Shown piece by piece: positions 33,898 to 37,472 of a DNA stretch of 52,489 nucleotides. This DNA is from an uncultured Armatimonadota bacterium. GTDB taxonomy: Bacteria; Armatimonadota; Fimbriimonadia; Fimbriimonadales; Fimbriimonadaceae. The translations under genes were made by a program, and so were the position numbers. Under the pieces are notes generated by a model. It was not told the origin of the DNA, searched no databases, and saw nothing but the letters and a program-made list of their open reading frames with translations. The stretch covers positions 1-52,489 of the forward strand of contig CAIUHP010000034.1 in assembly GCA_903899015.1 (NCBI GenBank). The letters run 5' to 3'. The first letter of the stretch is position 1; each line of letters opens with the position of its first letter.

Positions 33898-34944
33898 ATG
33901 CTTAGCCTATTGTTAGCCGTTTCGTTGAATTCCCCAAATCAGCCTCAGGTGCCCTTTGTTCGGCATCCAAAAATGGCTTATATCGAGAACGGCGTCATCA
34001 AATTGGGAGTCGACCTAAACCTAGGAGGATCGATCACATACTTGGCTCCGATCAGTCACCCCGAGAAGAGCTTGGTTAACAGTAGCGATTTAGGGAGGCA
34101 AATCCAGCTCTCCTACTACTCTGGTCCCGTGCCTTATCACCCTAAAGGAGCCACCATTTCGAAGAGTTGGCAATTCCTCGGTTGGAATCCAATTCAAAGT
34201 GGCGACTACTACGGTAACTCGTCAAAAATCCTATCTACCAAGATCGGCAAAGATCGCCTCACCCTCCGGTGTATTCCAATGCATTGGCCACTCAAGAATG
34301 TGCCTGGAGAATGCGAATGTGAGGTTTCACTCCAGCTCGAAGGAGCGGCTGTCAAGGCAAAATGTCGACTGTTCAACAAGCGTGACGACGACCTAACTCA
34401 ATATTCTGCCCGGGCTCAGGAGTTACCTGCGGTCTATGTAAATGCCCCGTACTATCACCTCATGACGTATACGGGATCTGCTCCATGGGCTCAGGCTCCG
34501 TTGACGGAAATCCATAACCGACTAGACATGGAGCAGCATTGGGCAACCTGGTTAGCAACGGAAAACTGGGCCGCTCAAGTCGATGATCATCAGTGGGGTT
34601 TAGGAGTTTGGAATACCGGCACGGCACGATTCTCCGGTGGCTTTTTCGGCGAACCTGGAGTTGGCGGACCGGATGACGGACCGACCGGTTACATCGCTCC
34701 AAATCGCACTGAAATTCTCGATCACAACATCGTTTACGACTACAACTATGTCCTCGTAGTCGGTAGCCTCAACGAAATTCGGACTTATATTTACAATCAC
34801 GCAAAGCACGATCTTCCGGTTTGGAACTTTAACCGAACTAGAGAAGGCTGGAACTACGAGAACGCCTCGGACAAAGGGTGGCCGTTAAAGGGAGGTTTGG
34901 ACTTCACTGTTGCCAATAAATCCGTCCATCTGTTTAGCCCTTAG
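33898..34944 (+). CDS. Secreted protein of unknown family, truncated by an in-frame TAG
   Basis: 348 aa to the TAG at 34942-34944. Short signal (MLSLLLAVSL), then an all-beta-looking protein (YIENGVIKLGVDLNLGGSITYLA, NRLDMEQHWATWLATENWA, DHQWGLGVWNTGT). I do not recognise the family. The frame continues coherently for another 94 codons after the TAG to 35226, so this looks like the N-terminal three-quarters of a longer gene. A -10-like TAATAT lies near 33855. The neighbour is a convergent glycosidase gene. It may be carbohydrate-related by context. Confidence 0.7.
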   Translation: MLSLLLAVSLNSPNQPQVPFVRHPKMAYIENGVIKLGVDLNLGGSITYLAPISHPEKSLVNSSDLGRQIQLSYYSGPVPYHPKGATISKSWQFLGWNPIQSGDYYGNSSKILSTKIGKDRLTLRCIPMHWPLKNVPGECECEVSLQLEGAAVKAKCRLFNKRDDDLTQYSARAQELPAVYVNAPYYHLMTYTGSAPWAQAPLTEIHNRLDMEQHWATWLATENWAAQVDDHQWGLGVWNTGTARFSGGFFGEPGVGGPDDGPTGYIAPNRTEILDHNIVYDYNYVLVVGSLNEIRTYIYNHAKHDLPVWNFNRTREGWNYENASDKGWPLKGGLDFTVANKSVHLFSP

Positions 34945-35226
34945 TTCGCTCTTCCACTCGCTCATCTCTCGGCGGTCACCATTCAAGTTTCTTGCTCGGG
35001 CTCTCCAGCCTCGGCTGAACTCATGGCTAAAACCAGCCGGTCGAATGAGTTCTCACCCATTACGAATCAGCCGCTTTCCCTGATGAGTGATGGAAAACTT
35101 CATACCTACCGAATTCAAGTCAAGCCTCAACTTTCAGAAGCGGAGTTACTCAACCAGCTCAAATTCTCATTTAAGAGCGACAAGGAAACGTCTTTAATGG
35201 TGAAATTGGTTCGGATCGAGAAATAG
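34945..35226 (+). pseudogene. In-frame C-terminal continuation beyond the TAG
   Basis: 94 sense codons in the same frame as the preceding gene, with protein-like composition: LAHLSAVTIQVSCSG..., then LMSDGKLHTYRIQVKP. It includes a plausible beta-domain. The only ATG (35023) lacks an RBS. The TAG ends exactly next to the convergent gene at 35227. Either a nonsense mutation, a sequencing error, or stop-codon readthrough; I cannot choose from one sequence. Confidence 0.6.
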
Positions 35227-37428
35227 CTATCCTCCAGATTTTGCGATCGTGAATTCGGCCGAGTGAGTGCTCGGTACTGCCAGTACACCCAGGACGAAAC
35301 GTCCAGTTGTCGAGTCGTAAGACTCAAGTTTGGCGCTTCCCTTTATTGCGGTTACAGTCGGTAAAGACGGGCAAATACCCTCGATGAGAATTCGACTCTC
35401 ACCAGGGGCGAAATGAATCTTAAGACTCAAACCAGTTGATCGAGTGTCGATCGAAACGATTCTTTGTTTGCCAGTCGGCACAATCTTGCTTAAGTCTCCC
35501 AGAATCGTGATTCCCGATTGAGTGACGGGAAGAACCATCAGGTAGGCATAACCCTGCTCACCGATGTCTCCTTGAATGACTCCGTCGCTACCAACGAGAG
35601 TCGATTGATCTTTAGCAAAGTCAAAGACGTAGGCTGCCCCACTTTGCCCCAGGTCACGAAGATTGAACTCAAAGTGCCGTGTCGATTTGTCTCTTGGAAA
35701 GGCGAAGACGTACGAGGTTCGTACCGTTCCGTGGTTCGTGTAAGTCGAGGCTAGGAATGGAGTCTTGCGGTGGTCAGCCCCATCTTGATAGGTTTGGTCC
35801 ATCGGCAAAATTGGCCGATCCGGTTTGACGATTACTCCATCCGGGAGAATGGCTTTAAAGATATTTGACGCATTCTCTTTGCCGATACTGTCCCCTGTCC
35901 CTACCGGACCCGCTGAAAGCACGGACAGTATCATGTTTCCAAGTTCTCCGCTCTTGAAAACGTCGCACCAGGGCAAAATACCAACGGAGTCTGCCAGTTG
36001 GGAAACGTAAATAAAGTCCGCCCACTTGCCGGGTTCAAAACGGTCCCCGCTTGTGCGAATGGTTGTTAGGTTGGGATATTTCAGGCCTTGAAGAAAGAAC
36101 CTCGGAGTCCCCATACAGTATTGAAGAGTCAAATTGTGGTTCTTTGCCGCTTTTGCCATTCCGTCCGTAAAGGCATCGCCGATTCCCGGCATGGTCCCCA
36201 TCTCAGGACTATTCAAGTAGATCTGATCGAGCCAGTCCTGTTCGTAACAAACGACTCCTCCATCTAGGAGGTACTCCATAATGTCATCCCACCATTTGAG
36301 CTCAACGGCACCCACTCCAGAAATCAGATAAGTTTGGTGGTAAGGACTCATTCGATCGATCCACCGGTTATGGGTTGCAAGGGGAATCCCTAAATCATGC
36401 TGAAAGAAGCCCAGTCCGGTAGGAAATAGCTCGGGATCGGCGCGATATTCCATGAGCCCTCCGTAACGATTCCAGTTTCCTTCTGGCAGTTTTGAGTTCT
36501 TCTTGACTCCGCCGGGCTTACCAGATGGATCGTTGATAGACTTTTGATACCACCAGCTATCCAACTGAAGATAACCAAGCGGGATGTCTTTCGCGTCGTA
36601 AGTTTTCTTTAAATCCAACAACGTGTTCGTGTAGCCACGCTTCAAATCATAGTTGTAGTAATAATCGGCCCCATTATCTGTCCAGTAGCCAAATTTCTGA
36701 ACCAGTACATCCGCGTTCGGTTGGTTCAAGGTCCGTTTGTAGAGACCTCGCATCGCCAAACCCCATGTGTCCCACGTGTGGCCGATGCCGTCTCCGAAGA
36801 CCAACAAGGCATCTTGATCCATGTTCTTCGGGATGCTTTTCAAACCCTCGTTAAGCCTCACCCCTAAGGAGGTTTTCTCATTGCCAAACATCTTGGCAAT
36901 CATAAACTCTGAGGCGGGAGACATAATCATGGACTGCCCATTGGGTTCAAAAAGTAGCCATGGAGTGGCAGTTTCAGCTAACCCATACTTCGGAGGAGCG
37001 AACGTTCGATCTTGATAGCTGAAGGTCTTCATTTCACTTAGGTTCCCACTCAAAATGGGAAAAGGGATCCCAGCGCCAAATTCGCCTTCAAGATAGCGCA
37101 ACCGGAACCAAACCACGGGAAGGTTATCGTACCGACGTATCGTTCCTTGAACTGGGCCGACGGTATTCCAGTCGAACCTAATTTCCTGATACGCACCAAC
37201 TCCGTCCTTCCCTTTTCCTGACGATACGTGGGAAACCTTGCTTTCTATCTTTCCCGTGAGCCTTGCTTGCTGGCTCGGCACAGCTATTTCGTAAGTGCCC
37301 TCGGAGGAATTGACCGAAACAAGAATTCCGGATGCCGATTTGGGCAATTGTGAATCACCTGATCGTTGGCACCAAGCGGCTGTACTAACAACCAGGACAG
37401 AAATCGAGGCTATCCATCTCGAATGCAT
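35227..37428 (-). CDS. Exported TIM-barrel glycosidase, GH36/GH31-like
   Basis: 733 aa from the ATG at 37428, with signal peptide RWIASISVLVVSTAAWCQ; a longer frame to 37458 adds 10 residues. The beta-sandwich N-domain precedes a barrel with KFGYWTDNGADYYYNYDL, PLGYLQLDSWWY (strand with a likely catalytic Asp), VVCYEQDWLDQIY and LTTIRTSGDRFEPGKWAD. The layout resembles clan GH-D (GH27/31/36) glycosidases. The exact family is uncertain. The C-terminal beta-domain ends near the convergent TAG gene, with adjacent stops. Confidence 0.78.
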   Translation of the reverse strand: MHSRWIASISVLVVSTAAWCQRSGDSQLPKSASGILVSVNSSEGTYEIAVPSQQARLTGKIESKVSHVSSGKGKDGVGAYQEIRFDWNTVGPVQGTIRRYDNLPVVWFRLRYLEGEFGAGIPFPILSGNLSEMKTFSYQDRTFAPPKYGLAETATPWLLFEPNGQSMIMSPASEFMIAKMFGNEKTSLGVRLNEGLKSIPKNMDQDALLVFGDGIGHTWDTWGLAMRGLYKRTLNQPNADVLVQKFGYWTDNGADYYYNYDLKRGYTNTLLDLKKTYDAKDIPLGYLQLDSWWYQKSINDPSGKPGGVKKNSKLPEGNWNRYGGLMEYRADPELFPTGLGFFQHDLGIPLATHNRWIDRMSPYHQTYLISGVGAVELKWWDDIMEYLLDGGVVCYEQDWLDQIYLNSPEMGTMPGIGDAFTDGMAKAAKNHNLTLQYCMGTPRFFLQGLKYPNLTTIRTSGDRFEPGKWADFIYVSQLADSVGILPWCDVFKSGELGNMILSVLSAGPVGTGDSIGKENASNIFKAILPDGVIVKPDRPILPMDQTYQDGADHRKTPFLASTYTNHGTVRTSYVFAFPRDKSTRHFEFNLRDLGQSGAAYVFDFAKDQSTLVGSDGVIQGDIGEQGYAYLMVLPVTQSGITILGDLSKIVPTGKQRIVSIDTRSTGLSLKIHFAPGESRILIEGICPSLPTVTAIKGSAKLESYDSTTGRFVLGVLAVPSTHSAEFTIAKSGG

Positions 37429-37472
37429 AGGCCCTAAGTCTACGACGATTCGGACCAAAAAGGAGGTCGGGG

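Follow-up and report, generated by a model that had tools for sequence, protein, structure and literature searches.

A probable sugar-processing gene interrupted by a single in-frame TAG codon in an uncultured Armatimonadota bacterium

The window analysed here is a stretch of 52,489 nucleotides from an uncultured Armatimonadota bacterium of the family Fimbriimonadaceae (contig CAIUHP010000034.1 of assembly GCA_903899015.1). On its plus strand, translation from position 33898 gives 348 sense codons (the 5′ part or head, 33898-34941), an in-frame TAG at codon 349 (34942-34944), a further 93 sense codons (the 3′ part or tail, 34945-35223) and a second TAG at 35224-35226. The ATG at 33898 is the sole usable start in this frame, in which an upstream stop lies just 11 codons away. 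The second TAG is the natural terminal stop; relatives stop ~80-127 codons beyond the position of the premature TAG. A convergent gene occupies 35227-37458 on the minus strand, and its stop directly abuts the terminal TAG, as a sequence-only reading of the window had stated. The same reading gave 94 sense codons after the premature TAG, a count that took in the terminal stop; the number is 93. The product of the neighbouring gene is 743 aa long and has no sequence match in Pfam, NCBIfam or the PDB.

The protein is present in 7 of the 20 genomes searched from the genus and, across the phylum, in 46 of 291, and a contig search yielded 16 further loci in Verrucomicrobia, Bacteroidetes, Planctomycetes, Lentisphaera, Armatimonadetes and Clostridia. 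An alignment was made of the extracted frames of 22 relatives from these same groups, and a second set of 23 more loci from the phylum was examined for continuation beyond codon 348. The sequence-only reading had pointed to full-length homologues as a check on its view of the locus, and the outcome was uniform: all 45 relatives continue beyond the TAG position (one of them, L051, running to its contig end), and none of the 45 ends naturally at residue 348. The TAG falls in a variable, non-conserved column of the alignment, where each of the 22 aligned relatives has a sense codon; a stop codon at this column was found in none of the relatives examined.

The closest relative belongs to another species of the same genus (G013) and is uninterrupted. 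It is a true orthologue, because it lies in the same gene order: a GntR gene, an ABC ATPase, a permease, the gene described here, and a sensor on the opposite strand. Since every relative reads past the TAG position and the G013 orthologue is uninterrupted, 33898-35226 is one gene with a single in-frame TAG, and no natural shorter form of it is known. The premature TAG was found in one genome only, in a comparison that included one genome per species. At the syntenic G013 locus (L055), the gene for the 743-aa protein is missing and the sensor gene comes directly next; one of the two species has therefore gained or lost the 743-aa gene.

The sequence downstream of the premature TAG had been described as protein-like in composition, and its codon score is indeed that of a gene and not that of random sequence. 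The in-frame score of the tail, 0.118, stands at the 42nd percentile among in-frame 93-codon pieces of the genes in the window, and exceeds the scores of all off-frame pieces. Only ~1% of shuffles of the tail give 93 codons free of stops. On a profile of the relatives' tails, built without the window sequence and without G013, the window tail scores 29.2 bits and the intact G013 tail 27.1 bits; among 2,000 shuffled window tails, none reaches 29.2 bits and the maximum is 6.1. Codon score, shuffles and profile match together rule out that the tail is a chance open frame. The earlier claim of one continuous gene, broken once in frame at 34942-34944, is thus upheld by the translation, the relatives and the tail profile.

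Structural modelling places the TAG within a domain. An AlphaFold2 model of the read-through protein, made from a 23-sequence alignment, has a pLDDT of 87. The protein begins with a short hydrophobic stretch that appears to be signal-peptide-like, after which residues ~25-305 are predicted to form a mutarotase-like supersandwich and residues ~303-442 a separate CBM-like beta-sandwich. Modelled alone, the C-terminal domain (residues 303-442) reaches a pLDDT of 91. The 5′ part of the gene would accordingly encode the hydrophobic stretch, the supersandwich and the start of the beta-sandwich, residues ~303-348, with the remainder of the beta-sandwich encoded by the 3′ part. Because codon 349 falls inside the second domain of the model, after its first strands and ahead of its long strands, a truncated product would contain an unfinished sandwich.

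Neither part of the protein matches a Pfam or NCBIfam model above cut-off, and a search of the PDB with a profile built from 23 family members gives no sequence match up to an E value of 10. The family is a widespread, uncharacterised one, with proteins of ~430-500 aa that are probably secreted; by its predicted fold, the protein is a probable sugar-processing, glycan-active one. The best match to the modelled supersandwich is the GH174 endo-1,3-fucanase 8jd7 (Z 23.7, rmsd 3.1 Å, 260 residues aligned, 11% identity), followed by the GH174 endo-1,3-fucanase 9k1g (Z 22.6), with the next matches at ~17. However, the family profile has no sequence match to 8jd7 or 9k1g, although both are in the PDB. 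Because sequence similarity was sought and is absent, we do not claim membership of GH174, and the likeness is one of predicted supersandwich fold only. In the GH174 enzyme Fun174A, an extra beta-sandwich domain has been shown to bind sulfated fucan, and the catalytic residues are reported to be D119, E120 and E218 (reviewed in PMC11943901). In the family described here, the acidic residues E138, E142, D164, E175, E222 and D275 are invariant. The modelled C-terminal domain of our protein resembles CBM28, CBM27, CBM29, CBM6 and CBM4, with which it aligns over 113-136 of its 140 residues at Z ~11-13; however, identity is 5-16%, and meprin and reelin domains match the same fold at similar Z, so that sugar binding by this domain is only suggested. 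Two loci in Planctomycetes (L029 and L030) carry family members within proteins of >1,200 residues with additional C-terminal regions, and the L029 protein terminates in a PEP-CTERM-like sequence.

The two parts of the protein differ in their conservation. Identity to relatives is 41-66% in the head versus 9-22% in the tail, and against the G013 orthologue it is 66% and 22%, respectively. The ratio of tail to head terminal-branch length is 4.98 for the window gene, the highest of 23, and 4.40 for the intact G013 orthologue; the mean residuals are -0.142 and -0.139, respectively. No part of the protein evolves faster in this lineage than the tail, and the intact orthologue is no different in this respect. 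The sequence-only reading had argued that the stop of the neighbouring gene, being directly adjacent, kept the tail from drifting, an argument that fails in the face of this pattern. A tail branch that is long relative to the head's could point to relaxed constraint, but the two ratios differ little; because the orthologue shows a like pattern, the fast evolution of the tail either predates the stop or is independent of it.

One possible scenario that bears on this pattern is that the truncation is adaptive or tolerated, such that the 348-residue protein is functional and this lineage can do without the C-terminal module. The supersandwich is complete in the model, and the rapid evolution of the tail, in the intact G013 orthologue as well, would suggest that constraint on the module is weak. 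However, the stop lies inside the modelled beta-sandwich and would leave ~46 of its residues unpaired, and not one of the 45 relatives ends at that residue; we consider a functional truncation highly improbable.

The recency of the stop is indicated by the undiminished match of the tail to the family, and not by the adjacency of the neighbouring stop. In simulations of neutral drift amounting to 0.1-0.2 substitutions per site, only ~14-37% of the runs stayed free of further stops and the median tail score fell to ~5-16 bits; the window tail has no second lesion after the TAG. The family match, set against the drift simulation, suggests that the stop is young, or unreal, or partly ineffective. 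The same choice follows from the relatives that read past the position, the intact syntenic orthologue and the continued match to the tail profile, which together argue for one gene whose stop is recent, erroneous or leaky. An attempt at dN/dS gives no decision between a young, an unreal and a leaky stop, because synonymous sites are saturated relative to the nearest relative (pS ~0.8). The sequence-only reading took a single nonsense change to be the simplest explanation and considered sequencing error and readthrough to be possible as well, and we concur.

An unreal stop would be a sequencing, consensus or assembly error, or else a minority variant, with the gene being intact in most cells. 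Such an explanation has the appeal that one base separates the observed sequence from an intact gene in which nothing else is wrong. Decay of the tail is no greater than in the intact orthologue, and the assembly consists of 119 contigs with repeats at contig ends. On the other hand, consensus sequence seldom contains isolated substitution errors, and the assembly, with a completeness of 99.87% and a contamination of 0.79%, bears no direct sign of error. We therefore regard an erroneous TAG as unlikely.

With regard to a leaky stop, a key question is how TAG behaves in this genome, of which 1.85 Mb was surveyed. TAG is a normal working stop here, terminating 393 of 1,287 sampled long genes. 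Reassignment of TAG as a sense codon was considered and rejected, since the codon is in regular use as a terminal stop. The ~41/44 tRNA genes of the genome that the survey covered include none with anticodon CTA; a sequence-pattern search for a suppressor tRNA gave fewer matches than its reversed control and is uninformative. Nor is there a clear TAG-specific excess of coding extensions in the 1.85 Mb (8 of 389 for TAG, compared with 7 of 519 for TAA and 6 of 367 for TGA). Ten of the best other extension cases were scanned against Pfam, and several of these consist of two separate genes that share a frame: DnaX then YbaB, FecCD then pterin-4a dehydratase, an esterase then DUF5990, and MurJ then an AtpI-like protein. 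The remaining cases have a Pfam match on one side of the stop only, or a weak one; a HEAT-repeat protein (L143) is among the cases. Because several of the other long extensions are separate downstream genes, the interrupted gene looks like an isolated case.

Programmed or leaky readthrough would produce the short form together with some full-length protein, and would keep the tail under selection. The preservation of the tail as a domain is consistent with this, and in-frame stops with dN/dS below 1 have been reported in many bacterial genes (Belinky et al. 2021, PMC7918605). A stable RNA hairpin is predicted on the plus strand at 34960-35050, ~15 nt past the TAG (z -2.4); none of 200 shuffles is as stable, and only 0.7% of 150 coding windows fold as low. 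However, the search for the hairpin was post hoc, a second stretch of the gene, at 34078, folds similarly (z -2.3), and the hairpin is not found in relatives, which also lack the stop; it is a weak hint only, of doubtful significance. A UAG with U as its next base is not known as a leaky context. Added to the tRNA and extension counts, and to the relatives, in which no stop was seen at this position, these points make readthrough distinctly improbable in our estimation. A more elaborate version is that the TAG is a newly evolved, regulated site in this lineage, at which the hairpin stimulates readthrough to give protein with and without the CBM-like domain; to this we attach hardly any credence.

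We favour, and consider likely, a recent nonsense mutation by which an accessory carbohydrate-active gene has lost all or part of its function. One base change would have turned codon 349 into TAG in this genome, and translation would presumably end there, so that the product, 348 residues long, would retain the supersandwich but lack roughly two thirds of the C-terminal domain. What is left of that domain would not be able to fold normally, and the product would probably be unstable or impaired. We infer that the base call is correct, that the ribosome stops at the TAG and that function is affected. The change would be recent, because the tail encodes its domain as well as that of the intact orthologue does and is free of a second lesion.

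The locus has the features of the nonsense-interrupted bacterial genes described by Belinky et al. (2021, PMC7918605), namely a single in-frame stop, uninterrupted orthologues and gene-like sequence beyond the stop, but differs in that one genome alone carries the stop. In that survey, carbohydrate metabolism ranks with the categories most often interrupted, and in-frame stops prove widespread among bacteria and mostly short-lived (PMC7918605), which makes the present case an ordinary one. As a mutation it matters little, because it only adds to the recent nonsense changes seen in accessory carbohydrate genes; automated annotation would label this gene either a 348-aa protein or a pseudogene. 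The family is more useful. Its spread over multiple phyla, its predicted fold near that of the fucan-degrading GH174 enzymes and its lack of a Pfam, NCBIfam or PDB sequence match make it a candidate new glycan-active enzyme family, which is testable with the intact members.

Finally, we note several features of related loci and contigs. A homologue in another genome (G092:C40, L054) was considered as a parallel case of TAG nonsense and rejected, since it is broken near a contig end. At L054:1-130 the family copy is broken by sequence resembling a transposase C-terminus, NNENPKPFVWTKSVQTILEKVNDCKAITETLH, and then a stop, an independent disruption. In L034 (G066:C89), the equivalent of residue 348 is followed by the family-like sequence SGFWLAEDSPK and then by an unrelated proline-rich stretch, with the tail running for 127 codons; this looks like a frameshift in that relative. 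In the G000 contigs C9, C12, C16, C18, C19, C25, C26, C27 and C32, the same short sequences recur at distances of up to ~250 bases from the ends, suggestive of a multi-copy element that interrupted the assembly at these points.
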